DNA of 31,924 nucleotides from a virus. Made by a program: the position numbers and the translations under genes. The notes below the pieces were generated by a model that searched no databases, had not been told where the DNA came from, and saw only the letters and a program-made list of their open reading frames with translations. The stretch lies in IMG/VR virus record IMGVR_UViG_3300032331_003047, positions 1-31,924 of that record; one strand, written 5' to 3'. Shown here piece by piece: positions 3,291 to 26,250 of the stretch; the stretch's first letter is position 1, and each line of letters opens with the position of its first letter.

Positions 3291-5425
3291 TGAAGAGTGC
3301 AAGCATCAGTTCTGGAAGGGCTCAAAAAGCCACGGCAGGGTGGTTCCACGGGGTCAACAGCGTCAGGCACCCGTGGACGCTTCCTGACGACCAATTTAAG
3401 TGGGGCCAGAACATTACGGTTCGTGGAGGGATTGTCCAAACACGGCCGGGGTTTGCAATGCGTTTAAGCCTCCCTCCCGGGAACTTTCAAGGCGGGATTG
3501 TCTACAACGCAAACAAGCAAGCCCGCGTGGCAAGCTCTGAGTTGAATCCCTCTGGAGTTCGCGTCATCACGCAGCAAGCCATTTACACCCCAGATGGAGG
3601 AATTTCACTTGAGTTTGAGCTTCCGTACATGGTTTTTGCTGTTGACGGGAAAGTCTACTATGCGCCGTATCCGCTGAAGCAGCCTGCAGAATGGGGGGAC
3701 TATCAATTGTCTGGTATTTCACTCGACCCAGATGCGCCTAGTGTCAATTTCTGTCTCGTAACACAATCAGCTCAAACAGCGACCGGAGGAACAATTGCTA
3801 TTGTGCCATCGCACAGAATCCTAGTTATTCAAGATGGGATTTCAAAACCGGGATGGTGGGACGGATCAAACAAAACCGGAAATCAGGTTTCTGACATTCC
3901 GATTGGATTTTGGATGGCGTATTCCGGGAGTCGCCTTTGGGTGGCAAACGGAAACGTGATTGCCGCGTCAGACTTAGCCAACCCGCTAGGATGGAGAGAG
4001 CGAGTTTCTGGTACTGGAAGGGGTGATTTTTCTGTCAGCCGCCCAATCACGGCGATGCAGGACTATGTTGGTCAAAATAACGATAGCAGGCTTTACGTTT
4101 TCACGGACCGCTCCACGTACATGCTGGCATCTGGGATCCTCGACAGAAGCCAATGGGCCACGACGACCAATTTTCAGTCGGTTCTGTACCCGAATATTGG
4201 ATGCGTGGCCGGAAAGTCCATTGCATTCCAAGCCGGGATGATGTGGTGGTATTCGCAGGGTGGCCTTGTTTCAGCCGACGTGGCAGCATCCAGCTACCTC
4301 TCAAGTCAGGTGCTCTACAAAGACATAGAGATGGCCAAGGCAAAGCGTTTGATGCCAAATGTAATCAGCGGCATCTGCTCGATTGCGTTTGAAAACTACC
4401 TTTTGTGTTCGATCCCTTATCTTGAGGTTGGCAACTCGGCCACAATGGTCCTCGACTATGCTGCAGCTTCTGAGTGGAATCAATCTCGAGTGCCTGCTTG
4501 GGCGGGTGTGTGGTCCGGAGTTCGACCAATTGAATGGGTTTCTGGCATAATTGATTCGCGGCCTCGAGTTTTTGCGTTATCCATTGATTACGCGGCGACT
4601 AACGACGGGTCACACAATCACATTTGGGAAGCATTTCAGCCTGAGCGGTACGACACGTATTTGAGTATCGACGAGGCAGGCGTAGCCACTAGCCTCATCA
4701 ACCGAATTTACTGCCAGATGGAGACTGGGCTAATGGGGGATGGGATGGACCTGAAGCAGCTTGTGTTCGCGGAGTTGGACGCCTCGCAAATTGCCGGAAA
4801 TGTGGATGTGAAGGTTTCTTACAGAGGATCCCGTGGAGCGTATGACCAAATTTTGAACACTCGTTTACTGGCGGCTACCGAAGAGTACCAGTTCAATTCA
4901 AATCCTCGGGCTAACGAGATTCGTGAGTTGGGTTTCCTTCAAACGCAGTCTCGTCGTTTGATCACAGAAACCGTTCAGCCAAACCCGCTTGCAAAAACGT
5001 GTGAAAGTCAGCACATCAACTCCATCGACAAGGCGTTTTCCTTGCTGATTGAGTGGTGTGGAGCGATGGCTATCGAAACTATTCGCTGTTATCAAGATCC
5101 GTGGCAGGACAAGAGCGTTGGGCGTGTGTCGGTGGATGAAACTCAATACTGTGTCATTGGTGAGAACGGAGAGTCGCTCTCAGTTGAGCTTCCACCTCCA
5201 CCGGAAGAGCTTAGAAGCTCGGATCCAAACGTCTTTTTTAGCACAAAATCCGCGACCGCAACATCAGTATGCCCCGGCGGCTCAAAACCCGCTGTGGCCG
5301 CTACTGCAAGCGCGTCAGCAGCATCATACATCTCACAAAGAGATGCGGATGATTTGGCTTTTGCAAAAGCGTTGGCAGAAGCTCAAGTTGCTGCCCAAAA
5401 TTACCGCCTTACAAATCCCTGCTGA
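3290..5425 (+). CDS. Probable phage tail (nozzle/hub-like) protein with C-terminal DUF5977-like segment
   Basis: 711 residues, ATG overlapping the upstream stop. The N-terminal part has the pattern DDQFKWGQNITVRGGIVQTRPGF, here split as DDQFKWGQNITVRGG (residues 33-47) then a QTRPGF turn. This resembles the opening of beta-propeller tail proteins that begin with a surplus-of-beta, xRPG motif. The middle is Trp/Tyr/Gly-rich with repeated blades (for example SRLYVFTDRSTYML). The last ~65 residues (from about 647) read FFSTKSATATSVCPGG, then SQRDADDLAFAKALA and a final NPC. This matches my memory of DUF5977, a Cys-bounded tail with an SQxDADxxA core. Function as a tail component is inferred from context and fold-like patterns; the specific T7 gp12-like role is only a suggestion. 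Confidence 0.6.
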   Translation: MKSASISSGRAQKATAGWFHGVNSVRHPWTLPDDQFKWGQNITVRGGIVQTRPGFAMRLSLPPGNFQGGIVYNANKQARVASSELNPSGVRVITQQAIYTPDGGISLEFELPYMVFAVDGKVYYAPYPLKQPAEWGDYQLSGISLDPDAPSVNFCLVTQSAQTATGGTIAIVPSHRILVIQDGISKPGWWDGSNKTGNQVSDIPIGFWMAYSGSRLWVANGNVIAASDLANPLGWRERVSGTGRGDFSVSRPITAMQDYVGQNNDSRLYVFTDRSTYMLASGILDRSQWATTTNFQSVLYPNIGCVAGKSIAFQAGMMWWYSQGGLVSADVAASSYLSSQVLYKDIEMAKAKRLMPNVISGICSIAFENYLLCSIPYLEVGNSATMVLDYAAASEWNQSRVPAWAGVWSGVRPIEWVSGIIDSRPRVFALSIDYAATNDGSHNHIWEAFQPERYDTYLSIDEAGVATSLINRIYCQMETGLMGDGMDLKQLVFAELDASQIAGNVDVKVSYRGSRGAYDQILNTRLLAATEEYQFNSNPRANEIRELGFLQTQSRRLITETVQPNPLAKTCESQHINSIDKAFSLLIEWCGAMAIETIRCYQDPWQDKSVGRVSVDETQYCVIGENGESLSVELPPPPEELRSSDPNVFFSTKSATATSVCPGGSKPAVAATASASAASYISQRDADDLAFAKALAEAQVAAQNYRLTNPC

Positions 5426-5426
5426 C

Positions 5427-5669
5427 ATGCCTACAATTACGCAACTGTCTGAGCCTGTGAATGTTTTCCCAAACATTTACATTTCTCCATACGGGAACGA
5501 CGGCGTGATTCCACTGTATTCCAGTGTTCCAATCAACAATTTCACTTCCGGGAATTGCTTGCCTTGCGTTGTTTGCGGGAATTCAAAAACACGCGCTCAA
5601 ATCCTTGCAGATCAACTAAAATCTAATCAATACAAACCAAAATCACAAACCGAACTTGTGAAATACTAA
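5427..5669 (+). CDS. Small Cys-containing hypothetical protein
   Basis: 80 residues from the ATG at 5427, one base after the stop of the previous gene. A longer open frame extends upstream inside the tail gene, but this ATG fits the tight packing. The middle carries NCLPCVVCGN, three Cys spaced C-x2-C-x2-C, and the C-terminus is Lys/Gln-rich. The Cys-rich segment directly after a DUF5977-like tail could mean a partner of the tail protein. No family recognised. Confidence 0.6.
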   Translation: MPTITQLSEPVNVFPNIYISPYGNDGVIPLYSSVPINNFTSGNCLPCVVCGNSKTRAQILADQLKSNQYKPKSQTELVKY

Positions 5670-5670
5670 T

Positions 5671-6057
5671 ATGCGTAAATCAATACAATATAAAAGAGTT
5701 TATGCCGGAACACCGGAGTTTGCTGATCTTCAGCAATTTGCTGATTCTTTTAATCATCAGATTCATCCAAGCCCAACAACAAACGTGTTTGCACATTACA
5801 GGGACGGTGTGTTATTTGGGTATTCGGATCATGTTTTTGTTCCGACATGCTATCCCGCATTTCATCCATCCTTTACAAAACCGGCAGATGTGATTCAAGT
5901 AATGTCTGACTGGAAGGCGCATATGCAATTGGCTGGTAATGTTGGATACATAGCTGTACCTTCTAACAACAATGACGGTAGAGGGAATTTTCCTGATTCC
6001 GTCATGGAAAAGTTGGGTTTGATAAAACTAAACCGAGAGCTTTACTGGCCATCGTAA
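5671..6057 (+). CDS. Hypothetical phage protein, 128 aa
   Basis: ATG one base after the previous TAA, ending three bases before the next gene. It looks globular with mixed alpha/beta character (YRDGVLFGYSDHVFVPTCY near residues 43-61, GNVGYIAVPSNNN near 90-102, and a C-terminal MEKLGLIKLNRELYWPS). The order of strand, loop and late helix is a little like a small GNAT acetyltransferase-type fold, but no acetyl-CoA-binding motif is clear, so I give no function. It sits among virion genes. Confidence 0.65.
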   Translation: MRKSIQYKRVYAGTPEFADLQQFADSFNHQIHPSPTTNVFAHYRDGVLFGYSDHVFVPTCYPAFHPSFTKPADVIQVMSDWKAHMQLAGNVGYIAVPSNNNDGRGNFPDSVMEKLGLIKLNRELYWPS

Positions 6058-19494: not shown

Positions 19495-19652
19495 AAGAAG
19501 GACTCTACGCCAACATCCACGCCAAACGGAAGCGCATCAAAGCCGGGTCTAGCGAGAAGATGCGGAAGCTCGGAACTAAAGGGGCTCCTACCGCGAAGGC
19601 ATTCAAGCAATCCACTAAAACCGCCAAACCAGTTAAGAAAACAAAGAAATGA
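19491..19652 (+). CDS. Very small basic protein, 53 aa
   Basis: ATG overlaps the upstream TGA, and its own TGA overlaps the next ATG. The sequence opens MKEGLYANIHAKRKRI and continues KMRKLGTKGAPTAKAF to a Lys-only tail. I recall near-identical short proteins in other phages, usually beside the DUF6321-like gene. Strong positive charge suggests nucleic-acid or virion contact, but the function is unknown. Confidence 0.7.
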   Translation: MKEGLYANIHAKRKRIKAGSSEKMRKLGTKGAPTAKAFKQSTKTAKPVKKTKK

Positions 19653-20929
19653 ACGGACTAAAAGATCCGAGCGATGTGACGTGTTTAGTGGTTGACAATG
19701 GTCTATTTTGCGAGTTGGCCATCAAACTCGCCAAAACCTTCAAAAAAGTCTACTACTACGTCCCGTGGGAGAACGCATTCCCGCGACTGAACCTTGCTAG
19801 GATCGGGCACGGAATCGTAGAACTTGAGCTTGTGGACTCCATCTACGGTCCGCACTTCGATGAGATCGACCTCTTCTGCTTTCCAGACATTTATTTTGGC
19901 TGGGAACAAGAGCACCTAGTCAAAATGGGGAAGACCGTGTGGGGATCCCGTACTGGAGAGTGCTTGGAGTTGGAGCGCGAGGGAATGAAACAGATCCTCA
20001 GGGAGTTGGATCTTCCAGTAGGCAAATTCTGGCACGTCACCGGTATGGCAAACCTTCGGGATTTCTTGAGGGATCACCCGAACGTCTACGTCAAGACAGA
20101 CAAATACCGTGGCACGTTCGAGACTTTTCACTCCATCAACTACGATTTGGTGGAACCAAAGCTCGATGAGGTTGAGTGGTCGCTTGGTCGGTTCAAGGAC
20201 ATCATTGAATTCACGGTGGAAGCAGCACTGGAGGACCGTGTTGAGTTTGGGACAGACGCTTGGACGATTGATGGCCAATTCCCGGGCAAGCTCATCTCTG
20301 GGCTGGAAATCAAAGACTGCGGTTTCGCCTCGGTTTTCAAAGACTACGCTGACCTCCCTGAGCCTTTGACGCGATTCAATGACCGTATGAAACCGGTGTT
20401 CGAGGCTTACGGATACCGTGGGTTCTTCTCGACTGAGATCCGAATCGGGAAAGATTACGAGCCCTACATGATCGATTTCTGCGCTCGGGCGCCGAGTCCG
20501 CCGAACGAGTTGTACCAAGAACAATACAAGAACCTTGCCGAGTGCATGTGGGCGGGCGCGAACGGCATTGTGATTGATCCTGAGCCGGTTGCAAAATACG
20601 GGGCCGAGATCATGCTCCACTCGTCGTTTGCGGATAAAAACTGGCAGCCTGTGACGTTCCCGGAAGAAATCCGAGACTTTGTAAAGCTGCGGAATATCTA
20701 CAAAGACGACCGTGGCTACTTCGTCGTCCCGCAGTCATGCGGCCTTCCGGAAATCGGAGCTGTTGTGGGCCTTGGTAACACTCTGGAAGAGGCGTTTGAT
20801 CATGCTCTAGAGAACGCGGGGCTTGTGGACGGGTACTACCTCGAGTGCAAGACTGGAGCAATCGATCAGGTGAAGGAGCAAATCCAAAAAATGGCAGACC
20901 TCGGGCTGTCTGTGTTCGATGAGGATTGA
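19649..20929 (+). CDS. ATP-grasp enzyme, PurD-like (phosphoribosylamine-glycine ligase family)
   Basis: 426 residues. The N-terminal 110 residues look like a Rossmann-type preATP-grasp domain (VTCLVVDNGLFCELAIKLA). The ATP-grasp part has a nucleotide-binding Lys near 149 (VYVKTDKYRG), a metal-binding-type pair Glu263 (STEIRIG) and Asp276 (PYMIDFCAR, Arg280), and a C-terminal domain with GLGNTLEEAFDHALENA, as in PurD-like proteins. It is known that several phages carry isolated PurD-like ATP-grasp genes; their substrate is usually untested. No other purine gene is present, so a role other than purine synthesis, such as ligating an amino acid to another target, is possible. It overlaps both neighbours. 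Confidence 0.7.
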   Translation: MNGLKDPSDVTCLVVDNGLFCELAIKLAKTFKKVYYYVPWENAFPRLNLARIGHGIVELELVDSIYGPHFDEIDLFCFPDIYFGWEQEHLVKMGKTVWGSRTGECLELEREGMKQILRELDLPVGKFWHVTGMANLRDFLRDHPNVYVKTDKYRGTFETFHSINYDLVEPKLDEVEWSLGRFKDIIEFTVEAALEDRVEFGTDAWTIDGQFPGKLISGLEIKDCGFASVFKDYADLPEPLTRFNDRMKPVFEAYGYRGFFSTEIRIGKDYEPYMIDFCARAPSPPNELYQEQYKNLAECMWAGANGIVIDPEPVAKYGAEIMLHSSFADKNWQPVTFPEEIRDFVKLRNIYKDDRGYFVVPQSCGLPEIGAVVGLGNTLEEAFDHALENAGLVDGYYLECKTGAIDQVKEQIQKMADLGLSVFDED

Positions 20930-21620
20930 GTTTAAAGTTGTTGAGCCGGCCGCCATGCGGTACCCAACCGCTGGCGACTGGGAGTGGCTCCCTGACGGCG
21001 CTCTGAAACTAACGGTGCCCGATTACGGTACAACGGAGTCCGGAGCACTGCTCATCCTGATGCACGAGCTGCTGGAGGCTTTTTTGTGCAAGCGGGACGG
21101 GATTTCAGATGAGGCGGTCACGAAGTTTGACACCGAGAACCCGAAGCTCGAGGAGCCCGGGGATGATCCTCGGGCGCCGTATCACCAGCAGCATCTGGTC
21201 GCAATGGCCGCTGAACGGAATTTGGCGGATGGGATGGGTGTTGACTGGGACAGTCACAACCACTGGGTGATGATTGCCGGCAACGAGGTTGAGCGGCTCG
21301 ACTCGCTGGGTGAGTTGCAGGAGTCCCGGATCCTCATGGAGGGGCCTCGCTACTGGGCGGAATTGCATCTCTACGCCCTCCGCAACGAGGGCAAAGGCCG
21401 AGACATGGTTCCTTGGGTGCTGGACTGGTTTTCGGACCTTCCGTTTGAAGGATGCCCTTGCAAAGAACACGCCGAGAAATGGTTTCGAGAAAACCCGCCT
21501 GATAATCAAAACCTGTTTGAGTGGTCTGTGCTATTTCATAACGAAGTAAATTCAAGGAACTTCAAGCCATGTCTGTCTATTGATGCCGCTCGCAATTTGT
21601 GGCAAAACAGGTTGTTTTGA
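20919..21620 (+). CDS. Fusion of an HELLE-motif domain with an Erv/ALR-like thiol oxidase-type domain
   Basis: 233 residues; ATG overlaps the PurD-like gene by 11 bases. The N-terminal domain (1-120) carries MHELLEAFLCKRDGISDEA with HELLE at 49-53 and a later DDPRAPYHQQH, a pattern I have seen in phage proteins of unknown function; it may bind metal. From about 140 the sequence follows the Erv/ALR plan: GPRYWAELH (Trp146, His150), then CPCKEHAEKW (Cys179, Cys181, His184), ENPPD, and HNEVNSRNFKP from 207. In known Erv/ALR enzymes the active site is CxxC and the HNxVN helix contacts FAD. Here the first Cys is shifted to give CxC, so oxidase activity is uncertain. Fold call moderate, fusion clear. 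Confidence 0.65.
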   Translation: MRIEFKVVEPAAMRYPTAGDWEWLPDGALKLTVPDYGTTESGALLILMHELLEAFLCKRDGISDEAVTKFDTENPKLEEPGDDPRAPYHQQHLVAMAAERNLADGMGVDWDSHNHWVMIAGNEVERLDSLGELQESRILMEGPRYWAELHLYALRNEGKGRDMVPWVLDWFSDLPFEGCPCKEHAEKWFRENPPDNQNLFEWSVLFHNEVNSRNFKPCLSIDAARNLWQNRLF

Positions 21621-23043: not shown

Positions 23044-23298
23044 ATGAGACACAATTCACGAGACCCTCAGCCATACCCGCCGCTTTACGACGGCGCGGTA
23101 TTTTTTAACCACCAGCGCAAGGAGAAGCGCCACGCATGGAAGTTCGCGTTGGGCGGTCTCGCACTTTTAGCATTAGATGTTGCGCTGTTCTTTGACATTC
23201 TTAATACGGCGTCTGCTTTTGACCTCTTCACTATTTGGTGGCTGTCCTCGGCGGCAACCGGTTTGGTGTTTGAATCCATACGGAGGGCGCTGAAATGA
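23044..23298 (+). CDS. Small membrane protein with two transmembrane segments
   Basis: 84 residues. Basic N-terminal 30 residues (HQRKEKRHAWK) are followed by hydrophobic segments at about 34-53 (FALGGLALLALDVALFFDIL) and 59-76 (FDLFTIWWLSSAATGLVF), joined by a very short turn and ending ESIRRALK. By the positive-inside rule both ends would be cytoplasmic. It is the first gene after the promoter candidate and overlaps the nuclease gene by ATGA. The function is unknown; a holin or membrane anchor for replication proteins are both possible guesses. Confidence 0.65.
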   Translation: MRHNSRDPQPYPPLYDGAVFFNHQRKEKRHAWKFALGGLALLALDVALFFDILNTASAFDLFTIWWLSSAATGLVFESIRRALK

Positions 23299-24344
23299 GC
23301 GATCTTTTTCAACAAGCTGAGCTTGCCGGCCGGGCTGAAATTCCCATCGTGGACGTTGCCAGCGCCAAGGCTCACGGGCTATTTGCAGCTTGGGTGCATG
23401 CTTTTCGCCCGGTGCTTGAGTCTCACGATGTTCTCGAGGTGGAGAGTGAGTTCACGTTTCCTCTCATTAACCCAGAGACGCATGGGACTTCCCAGACATT
23501 CCTAGAGGCAGGGAAAATTGACGGAGTTCTTCGGTGCCGGCAAACCGGGGTGGTGAAGGCGCTCGAACACAAGACAACCAGCGACAGCATCGACAGCGAT
23601 TCCAACTATTGGCCAAGGCTGGTTATGGACTCCCAAGCCTCGAAGTACATCCTTGCACTCAACCAGAGGAGCGAGCGGGTCAGCACTGCGCTGTACGACG
23701 TTGTTCGGAAGCCCGCAATGAGGCTGAGCAACATTCCGATTCTCGACGCGGAGGGGAACAAGATCGTTGAAGATTCGGCAGGCAACCGGATCCGAACCAA
23801 AGACGGAAAGAAATGGCGTCAGACTGGTGACACGGAGCTTGGATACGTCGTGAAAACCCGGCTCGAGGTGTTTGATGAGCTTGCCAGCCGGGTCTATTCC
23901 GAGGTATCGGCATATCCGCAGGACTACTTCGCGCAGAAGGAAATTCCGCGCTCGGACACTGATCTCGTCGAGTACATGAACGACGCATGGTCGTTGAGTC
24001 AGCAGATCCTTTGGTTCCGTCGCAAGAACATCTGGCCACGCAACCCATCCGCATGCACGGCATTCGGCACCTGCGAGTTCTTCGACCTCTGCGCCGGCCG
24101 GGCAACGGTTGATGGGATTCGGTTCGCTGAATCTTCGTCTCACAAGGAGCTTACCCTCAAGGAGGGAGAGAAACAGCTTCTCACCAATTCACGCCTGAGC
24201 GCACTCCGGAAGTGCGCCCGGTACCACTTTCTCCGCTACGAGCAACCCACTGAGCGTGTCGGGGATCAGGAAGAGGCCCTCAAGTTAGGGACTCACTTCC
24301 ACCAAGCTGCAGATGTTTTTCTGCGGCATTTCATCAGCAAATAA
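23295..24344 (+). CDS. PD-(D/E)XK exonuclease of RecB/Cas4-like type, apparently circularly permuted
   Basis: 349 residues; GGAGG at 23282-23286 supports the ATG. Catalytic core: Asp76 (GKIDGVL), Glu91 and Lys93 (LEHKTTS), then a QASKYILAL helix. Three Cys follow (254, 260, 266 in CTAFGTCEFFDLC), as in the C-terminal iron-sulfur half of Cas4/AddB-like nucleases. The fourth Cys and the GxxxH box, which in these families open the protein, are here at the end: NSRLSALRKCARYHFLRYE (Cys307) and LKLGTHFHQA (His334/336). The N-terminus lacks any such box. In phages this nuclease usually resects ends for recombination and sits beside a Sak4-like ATPase, as here. Family call strong; permutation is my reading. 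Confidence 0.85.
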   Translation: MSDLFQQAELAGRAEIPIVDVASAKAHGLFAAWVHAFRPVLESHDVLEVESEFTFPLINPETHGTSQTFLEAGKIDGVLRCRQTGVVKALEHKTTSDSIDSDSNYWPRLVMDSQASKYILALNQRSERVSTALYDVVRKPAMRLSNIPILDAEGNKIVEDSAGNRIRTKDGKKWRQTGDTELGYVVKTRLEVFDELASRVYSEVSAYPQDYFAQKEIPRSDTDLVEYMNDAWSLSQQILWFRRKNIWPRNPSACTAFGTCEFFDLCAGRATVDGIRFAESSSHKELTLKEGEKQLLTNSRLSALRKCARYHFLRYEQPTERVGDQEEALKLGTHFHQAADVFLRHFISK

Positions 24345-24351
24345 ATACACC

Positions 24352-25233
24352 ATGAGCATCCTAAATAAAATCAAGCGAGGCGGCGCGGCGTTGCCCCCAC
24401 GCATCATTCTGTCCGGTCCCGAGGGGATTGGAAAAAGCACGTTTGCAGCGGGCGCACCAAATCCAGTGTTCATCGCTCAAGAGTCCGGACTCACCGGTCT
24501 CGACCACATTGATCGCATCACCCCTGAATCGTTTGCCGATGTGACCGGCGCAGTTGAGGAGCTGATCTCTGCTGATCACAAGTACCAGTCAGTGGTCATC
24601 GATACCACAGATTGGCTCGAGCGTAGTATCCACCAGTTTATCTGCGGAAGGGACAAGCAGCCCGGGGTTGAAGGATACGGTTTCGGCAAGGGGTACAAAA
24701 TTGCCGAGCAGGAACTGGTTCTTCTCCTGAACAAGCTGGACGCACTCCGTGATCGCCGGAATATGTTCATTATACTTCTTTCCCACGTCCAGATCAGGAC
24801 CTTCCAAGACCCTTCTGGGGAGACTTGGGATCGGTACGAAATGAAGGGGCACAAGGGCTTTTGCGGCATCCTACGGGAATGGCCAGACGCTTGTTTGTTC
24901 GCTGTCTACGAGGTCTTCAAGCAGAAGGAACGCGGCAGCAACGTCGAGCGCACGATCGGCGGAGGGCGCATCATTCACACCCAGTGGTCCCCGGCATGGG
25001 ACGCAAAGAACCGTCTCGCATTGCCAGAAACCATCGATCTCTCGTGGGAGGCGTTCAGCGAATCCTACGAAGCGAATAGGCCCGACAAATTGCGAGAGCA
25101 GTTCCGGGCGCTATTAAAGTCCGCAAACCTCACTGACGAGGTCCGGAAGAAATGGGAAACCACGCCGGTGGACTCCCTCGCTCCAGAGCGTTTGAAGGCT
25201 GGCATTGAAAAACTCACCAAGTTGCAGAAATAA
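24352..25233 (+). CDS. Sak4-like RecA-fold ATPase (phage recombinase, AAA_24-type)
   Basis: 293 residues from the ATG at 24352 (preceded by ACACC); an upstream in-frame TTG at 24313 lies inside the nuclease gene. Walker A GPEGIGKS at 22-29 (Lys28), Walker B VVIDTTDW with Asp84, and a conserved ILLSHVQIRTFQDPSGE segment are the signature of phage Sak4-type proteins. Sak4 proteins stimulate single-strand annealing with SSB. The C-terminal ~45 residues form a Lys/Glu-rich helical tail. Its neighbours (exonuclease upstream, SSB then RusA downstream) form a typical phage recombination cassette. Confidence 0.85.
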   Translation: MSILNKIKRGGAALPPRIILSGPEGIGKSTFAAGAPNPVFIAQESGLTGLDHIDRITPESFADVTGAVEELISADHKYQSVVIDTTDWLERSIHQFICGRDKQPGVEGYGFGKGYKIAEQELVLLLNKLDALRDRRNMFIILLSHVQIRTFQDPSGETWDRYEMKGHKGFCGILREWPDACLFAVYEVFKQKERGSNVERTIGGGRIIHTQWSPAWDAKNRLALPETIDLSWEAFSESYEANRPDKLREQFRALLKSANLTDEVRKKWETTPVDSLAPERLKAGIEKLTKLQK

Positions 25234-25239
25234 CACACC

Positions 25240-25809
25240 ATGACACCAATCAATACAGCGGGCACCTTTGAGTGCCGAGTTGCAGCACAGACAACCCACG
25301 ACCCTTATTTTCAGGTACGTGGACGAGACGAGACGGATTGCATTTGCCTAGTGCTCGAGACACTTGACGGTAGTCAGCACATCAAGAGCTATTCGTATTT
25401 AAGCCCCAATGCTGCTCCGTACACGAAGCGGAACCTTAATCACCTCTTTGGTGACGATTGGATCGATCGAACCGACGATGGTGAGGATCCGTTCGCCGGA
25501 GTTGAAGTGCAGGTAGTGACCGAAATTGAGTATTACAATGGTAAGCCCCAGTGCCGGGTAAAGTACCTGAACAAGCCGGGGTCATCCGGTGCGCCGATGG
25601 CTCACCGTAAAGTCTCTGCGGTGTTGCAGGCTTTGCGGAAGACTAAGTTGCCAGAGGATCGCTCTGTGCGGGATTCTGGCACCCCTGTGCCGACCGAGAA
25701 ACGATCTATGTCGATGAAGGATTTGGAAGGCCCGGGGCAGGCTCCTAGAAGGCCGGCAGCACCTGCGCTTCCAAAGCACGAAGACGAAGACGATGATATC
25801 CCCTTTTAG
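25240..25809 (+). CDS. Single-stranded DNA-binding protein with DDDIPF tip
   Basis: 189 residues. The N-terminal 120 residues read as an OB-type beta domain (VQVVTEIEYYNGKPQCRVKY near 88-107). A Pro/Ala/Lys linker follows, and the last residues are KHEDEDDDIPF. DDDIPF is the C-terminal tip of bacterial SSB that binds partner proteins. The TAG stop at 25807-25809 directly after IPF shows that amber codons act as stops in this genome. Placed between the Sak4-like ATPase and RusA, it should coat ssDNA in recombination and replication. The N-terminal domain may be the DUF669-like phage variety; I cannot decide by eye. Confidence 0.85.
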   Translation: MTPINTAGTFECRVAAQTTHDPYFQVRGRDETDCICLVLETLDGSQHIKSYSYLSPNAAPYTKRNLNHLFGDDWIDRTDDGEDPFAGVEVQVVTEIEYYNGKPQCRVKYLNKPGSSGAPMAHRKVSAVLQALRKTKLPEDRSVRDSGTPVPTEKRSMSMKDLEGPGQAPRRPAAPALPKHEDEDDDIPF

Positions 25810-25812
25810 TCC

Positions 25813-26250
25813 ATGATTGCATTCACGCTCCCGTTGGACCCGCATTCGGTGCAGCACGGCGGGAAGCGTATTGCTGTCGTGAACGGCAAGCCGAGGTTTT
25901 TTAAAACCAAGAAGGCTGCGAGTTGGGCGAATGCGGTTGGCCTGTTCGCCAATCGATACCGCCCGCCGCAGCCTTTTTCTTGCCCAGTGAGGTTATGCGT
26001 CACGTTTGTGATCCGAAGGCCTCAAGCATTGGGCGGGAAAAAGCATCCAGAGGGCCGTCTGCCGGCCACTAAGCGTCCTGACCTAGATAACCTCCAAAAG
26101 GGCCTACAAGACGCCATGAAAGGATTCTGGGAGGACGACTCGCAGATCGTTGAGCTGAACCTCAGGAAGGTTTACTCAGCGAAGGGCGAGGAACCCAAAA
26201 TTGAAGTCGAAATACATACATATGAAGAAACGAGTGAGAAAGACGGATGA
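25813..26250 (+). CDS. rusA: RusA-family Holliday junction resolvase
   Basis: 145 residues. The signature KRPDLDNLQKGLQDAM gives Asp90, Asp92 and Asp100, and WEDDSQIVEL gives Asp108/109, matching the acidic metal-binding cluster of RusA. The start MIAFTLPLDPHSVQ corresponds to the first strand of the family. RusA cuts four-way junctions symmetrically. It ends the recombination cassette and overlaps the next gene by 29 bases. Confidence 0.93.
   Translation: MIAFTLPLDPHSVQHGGKRIAVVNGKPRFFKTKKAASWANAVGLFANRYRPPQPFSCPVRLCVTFVIRRPQALGGKKHPEGRLPATKRPDLDNLQKGLQDAMKGFWEDDSQIVELNLRKVYSAKGEEPKIEVEIHTYEETSEKDG

Follow-up and report, generated by a model that had tools for sequence, protein, structure and literature searches.

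A gene in a metagenomic virus record, analyzed here over its full 31,924 bases (the window), very probably encodes a phage exonuclease of the RecB/Cas4-like kind (PF12705, PHROG 1218) that is genuinely circularly permuted, an identification that we hold as a single explanation together with the route and role proposed below. The case is built on the order of the motifs, its conservation, synteny, the cut sites, the tree, and a footprint at the DNA level in a related locus, L117. The ancestral protein would have begun with a box that carries the first cysteine (Cys1) and the GxxxH metal-site histidine, followed by D, ExK, QxxxY, and three Cys. In the window protein, a linker of about 15 residues between profile segments would connect the former C-terminus to the former N-terminus, and the new ends would have arisen by a cut in the loop that separates the GxxxH helix from the helix after it.

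The gene, at 23295..24344 on the plus strand (as are all features given here), is an intact reading frame that starts with ATG and encodes 349 residues; profiles, the census described below, and AlphaFold assign it to a topology designated P1 (b1-b2-nbox). A GGAGG ribosome-binding site, read directly at 23282..23286, lies 8 bases ahead of the ATG. The initial annotation took it as an argument against a missed N-terminus, and that argument is strengthened by the overlap of the ATG with the stop codon of the upstream frame (ATGA, 23295-23298); the two together indicate that no N-terminal sequence is missing. Segment b1 (residues 22-85, 23358..23549) includes the strand with Asp76, motif II (23520..23522), and follows nbox in canonical relatives. 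Segment b2 (residues 86-275, 23550..24119), contiguous in all three topologies, contains the ExK motif III as Glu91-His92-Lys93 (23565..23573), the QxxxY motif of RecB-like nucleases as Gln114-x3-Tyr118 (23634..23648), and three C-terminal-type cluster cysteines, Cys254, Cys260, and Cys266 (24054..24092). The HKEL at residues 283-286 (24141..24152) is a conserved HxEL element that belongs to the C-terminal tail of canonical proteins and here lies in the fusion linker, as seen from alignments. Segment nbox (residues 290-345, 24162..24329) is the canonical N-terminal box displaced to the C-terminus, and includes Cys307 (24213-24215) and G332-x3-H336 (24288-24302). The limits of b1 and nbox come from profiles and the census, and for nbox also from the alignment of P1 proteins; the same alignment identifies the motif residues of b1 and b2, with ExK also read directly. 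Each motif element is present in a single copy, and their order is rotated. All residues that the initial annotation had pointed out (D76, E91, K93, Cys254/260/266, Cys307, and a GTHFH box) lie at the positions it gave. Its GTHFH box is present, but the residue that corresponds to canonical motif I is H336, of G332-THF-H336. The annotation had overlooked two features, QxxxY (Q114, Y118) and, within the linker, HxEL (283-286).

Profile searches find the protein in two parts. Positions 96-329 of PHROG 1218 (exonuclease) align to residues 22-266 (1e-16 for that part alone), and positions 6-54 align to residues 291-340 (9e-6 alone). Body and C-terminal box each match on their own, and the rotated order is not a product of chance. 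Pfam model PF12705 (PDDEXK_1) scores 31.8 bits against a cut-off of 22, again in two pieces, with positions 3-49 on residues 297-343, C-terminal to the body, and with no single collinear match; the canonical relatives L068 and L110 match positions 3-246 collinearly. The GxxxH, D, ExK, and QxxxY motifs of the RecB-like nuclease clan are all found in the window protein. In a 60-row alignment of P1 proteins, D76, K93, Q114, Y118, G332, and H336 are invariant, as is a one-plus-three cysteine pattern formed by C307 and C254/C260/C266, while position 91 varies conservatively between Glu and Asp, the latter being found in the Tunturi proteins.

Relatives with the same order were readily found. IMG/VR yielded 62 related loci, and in all but two of them sub-profiles for the body (residues 22-275) and nbox (residues 290-345) detect the body and then nbox in one open reading frame. 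The Tunturiibacter phages Tunturi_1 and Tunturi_2 are isolates with complete genomes (PMC11924767). Their proteins, annotated as exonucleases, share the rotated order and align to the window protein in one piece that covers 95-98% of the query, with 32% of residues identical. With these isolates included, the P1 order occurs in about 80 distinct proteins, which bears out the first reading of the gene as rotated, with each element present once, rather than truncated or duplicated. Two P1 nucleases occur in bacterial genomes, L251 in a member of the Planctomycetota and L101 in a Chthoniobacterales MAG, presumably in prophages; that of L251 is very divergent. One record, IMGVR_UViG_3300020229_000001 (94,385 bases), carries two P1 loci, L009 and L014, about 63 kb apart, and may be two joined phages or a chimera.

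The two exceptions among the 62 loci define two further topologies. L043 is canonical, with nbox first. L065 has a third order, designated P2, in which ExK, QxxxY, and three Cys are followed by Cys1 and a GxxxH-type helix, with D at the very end; when L065 and L043 are aligned without rotation, large parts of each are forced into gaps. The order of motifs that characterizes the clan (GxxxH, then D, then ExK) is thus broken in two ways, with GxxxH last in P1 and D last in P2. A census of 228 loci used iterated sub-profiles for nbox, for b1 up to and including D, and for b2 from ExK as far as the third Cys. It counted as distinct proteins 45 canonical, 79 complete P1 (three more, truncated at contig ends, are left out), and 14 P2. 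The P2 members are L065/L092, L069-L078, L080, L128, L143, L154, and L161. All census proteins share one cyclic order with three cut points, and no nuclease among the 228 loci contains a duplicated part. In P1 the chain is opened in the loop that links the GxxxH helix to the b1 helix, and in P2 in the hairpin that links the D and ExK strands; the canonical ends lie between the cysteine cluster and Cys1. Alignments show the catalytic residues and cysteines retained in all three topologies. The family thus shows the marks of a natural permutant: a shared cyclic order, each element present once, and the existence of unpermuted homologs. In a separate observation, the canonical actinophage relatives L093, L096, and L097 lack part or all of the C-terminal Cys triad, possibly a series in loss of the Fe-S cluster.

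The lengths of the connecting regions fit an end-to-end fusion. Canonical proteins have a median tail of 20 residues and a median leader of 0, to be compared with median linkers of 15 in P1 and 19 in P2; HxEL, near the C-terminus in canonical proteins, is found inside the linker of permuted ones. The four cysteines would bind an Fe-S cluster, in which Cys254, Cys260, and Cys266 together with Cys307 would keep the original termini adjacent, and because the cluster would hold them side by side, joining the old termini should cost little. Catalysis by the window protein is likewise expected.

A route to such a protein is recorded in the DNA of L117, where the P1 nuclease gene spans 4782-5864 and its 3' end overlaps the start region of the gene for a Sak4-like annealing protein; L118, from another metagenome, is 95% identical in DNA sequence. 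The body of the L117 protein is nearest to those of canonical loci L110/L113/L114 (63-67% identity, vs. 51% for the best P1 protein), as is its box (56-58%, vs. 43-45% for P1), and its Sak4 protein is also closest to those of the same three loci. The rotation in L117/L118 appears independent of that in the other P1 proteins, comparatively recent, and placed inside a canonical phage group. At the DNA level, L117 4800-5602 corresponds to L110 4788-5599 (b1-b2), L117 5660-5768 to L110 4598-4706 (nbox), and L117 5825-7406 to L110 5623-7179, which begins at the L110 stop codon and the Sak4 ribosome-binding site. Such a footprint is what one would expect of a gene that was duplicated in tandem, fused, and stripped of its outer halves, with the box gone from the first copy and the body, as far as the 3' end, from the second. 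An array of about ten 27-base tandem repeats at L117 4212-4482, roughly 300 bases ahead of the permuted gene, may be an origin or a coding repeat.

The route, then, would begin with a tandem duplication; the two copies would fuse in frame, and the box of the first and the body of the second would be lost. Tandem duplication with loss of outer halves had been proposed at the outset; L117 provides the footprint for it, while for the window's own, older clade the same route is suggested only by analogy. Fission of a nuclease gene and re-fusion of its two half-genes is a recognized alternative model (PMC3320104) and agrees with the lack of any duplicated intermediate among the loci examined, but we judge it unlikely. 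Among 266 loci, no intact duplicated, half-duplicated, or split intermediate was found (L106 and L162 are frameshifted), and with no standing intermediate among them, fission and fusion may account for older events. Yet the only separate box and body frames seen are those of L106, which overlap in shifted frames. In L117, moreover, the boundary on the downstream side coincides exactly with the 3' end of the canonical gene, and a nearly full C-terminal tail plus a nearly full N-terminus make up the linker, both as duplication predicts.

Trees were built after segments of permuted proteins were rearranged into canonical order. With outgroups, the tree has the canonical order at its root and four state changes; a careful tree likewise gave four changes, and neither P1 nor P2 formed a single group in any of its 200 bootstrap trees. 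Relatives occur in 9 of 388 bacterial genomes from the phylum of the Chthoniobacterales MAG and in 14 of 392 from the phylum of Pan216, nearly all of them canonical, and adding these loci left the four changes unaltered. On these trees the canonical order appears ancestral, with at least four changes needed. A single origin of P1 lowered the log likelihood by 40 in the first sample (AU p 0.065, borderline) and by 51 after broader canonical sampling and the removal of some long branches (AU p 0.011, a rejection). Two or more origins of P1, the second being L117/L118, are well supported. Monophyly of the main P1 clade had strong support in one tree (97/88) and weak support in another (70/33). 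P2 would have arisen once or twice: L154 appears as a second P2 origin in every nuclease tree, but that second origin is not well supported, since a single origin is not rejected (AU p 0.42, 0.26). The Sak4 tree, compatible with one or two P2 origins with respect to L154, requires six changes and agrees with the nuclease tree only in part, which indicates that the two genes are partly exchanged separately; L117 is placed the same way in both. A tentative and rather doubtful extension is that the Fe-S-stapled RecB-like fold is a permutation hot spot, with at least four events at no fewer than two cut sites. The cluster would tie the ends together, tandem duplication beside Sak4 might be frequent, and selection might perhaps act on the end that faces the annealase.

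An AlphaFold2 model of the window protein, made with 60 family sequences, has a pLDDT of 95.9 and a pTM of 0.88 with no weak segment, and predicts that the P1 protein folds as one domain of which the box is a part. By VIA-align, residues 4-269 of the model superimpose on the AdnA nuclease domain (Z 9.6, 177 residues, 3.4 A); the body also matches AddB 850-1133 (Z 7.8) and Dna2 (Z 6.8), so that the catalytic body is predicted to have the RecB-like clan fold. AddB, AdnA, RecB, Dna2, and MGME1, whose nuclease domains are similar to the modeled body in fold, have the canonical order and are mostly domains of large helicases, whereas the window nuclease is stand-alone and rotated. For P2 the model is weaker (pLDDT 84.9, pTM 0.79), and its nbox-b1 half matches AddB 777-951 only weakly (Z 3.2-3.7). 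Taken together, the two alignments would fit a box equivalent to the part of AddB that precedes residue 850, but the fold searches appear to align in chain order and did not superimpose the rotated segment. The best BFVD match is a phage PD-(D/E)XK protein, A0A6J5NSY1 (TM 0.73), in whose record name permutation is absent. Sequence alone cannot separate a box that acts in cis from one that acts in trans by completing the active site of a neighbor in a domain-swapped dimer, and the model is of a monomer. We regard such a dimer as improbable, since the monomer model is confident over the whole chain and the linker lengths suit closure in cis.

The displaced box appears to be under purifying selection as strong as that on the body: in P1 its median dN/dS is 0.11, vs. 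0.09-0.10 for the body, and the P2 box has 0.07, each from few pairs, while canonical proteins gave higher values, 0.20-0.36, from two to five pairs only. These values, with the invariance of C307, G332, and H336 in 60 proteins, make it very unlikely that the window gene joins a truncated nuclease to a residual start of another nuclease gene, with the box as junk. The splitting of both the PF12705 and PHROG matches in two is what such a fusion would give. Nevertheless, an order kept in one open reading frame across some 80 distinct relatives is neither a truncation nor a second-gene remnant, the latter having been named in advance as one of the findings that would count against permutation, and no second nuclease frame with these profiles was found in the loci or in the 31.9-kb record. 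An assembly or circular-contig artifact, conceivable for a metagenomic record, can practically be dismissed, as the same order is found in two complete isolate genomes, many separate metagenomes, and bacterial contigs (L101, L251), always within one open frame.

In the window, the permuted nuclease is followed by a Sak4-like ssDNA annealing protein (24352..25233; PHROG 124, PF13479), the partner in all three topologies, then by a probable single-strand DNA binding protein with an acidic ...DDDIPF tail (25240..25809), whose counterpart at the same position in Tunturi is annotated SSB, a RusA-like Holliday junction resolvase (25813..26250), and primosomal and DnaC-like proteins. The Sak4-like gene lies downstream in 37 of 39 canonical, 66 of 67 P1, and 14 of 14 P2 loci, and canonical relatives from actinophages and elsewhere also lie upstream of a RecA-like or Sak4-like gene. 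Judging from family and operon, the nuclease most likely resects DNA ends for the adjacent annealase and SSB in a recombination operon. Elsewhere in the window, the phage protein at 20919-21617 has a sub-threshold match to Erv1/Alr (sulfhydryl oxidase; 25.4 bits vs. a cut-off of 27.6), and the 426-residue product of 19649-20929 has no Pfam or PHROG match.

The closest known systems are the canonical phage exonucleases of PHROG 1218 and PF12705 (Cas4-family/RecB-like, from actinophages; L110, L068), which have the same motifs, precede a Sak4-like or RecA-like recombinase in the same gene slot, and in close relatives share the four-Cys pattern; they differ in that the box with Cys1 and GxxxH is N-terminal, rather than C-terminal as in the window protein. 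AddB has one N-terminal and three C-terminal cysteines, and in AddB, Cas4, and Dna2 one plus three cysteines hold an Fe-S cluster. Cas4 combines GxxxH, D, ExK, and QxxxY with four cysteines. The window protein resembles it in all of these, but matches neither TIGR00372 (Cas4) nor any other NCBIfam or PADLOC model. A phylogenomic study of Cas4 describes the four-Cys Fe-S module in all members and does not mention permutation (PMC5704561).

Natural circular permutants are well known, and permutation intermediates are known among DNA methyltransferases (PMC3320104). The GTPases YRG and cpRAS keep the catalytic domain through rotation, in two different orders (PMC2430557), and the HD domain of Cas10 is circularly permuted (PMC3150331). 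What distinguishes the present case from these is that a single gene slot of related phages holds two cut sites, one of which was used in at least two independent events, together with a DNA footprint. No literature report of a permuted RecB/Cas4-like nuclease was found, although the main PD-(D/E)XK review (doi 10.1093/nar/gks382) may mention one, nor was any biochemistry of a permuted member. Circular permutation, known in general, is apparently unreported for RecB/Cas4-like nucleases within the literature searched.

Annotation with collinear profiles misreads nucleases of the PHROG 1218 type. The P2 protein L077, for example, scores 20.5 against the TIGR00372 cut-off of 65, over positions 3-58 of the Cas4 profile only and from residue 216 onward only. 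Most inferences of circular permutation compare two distant proteins. In this case, the canonical order, two rotations, and one comparatively recent rotation coexist in one slot of related phages, so that the routes (duplication vs. fission and fusion) can be tested directly, as can the structural basis on which certain cut sites are viable.
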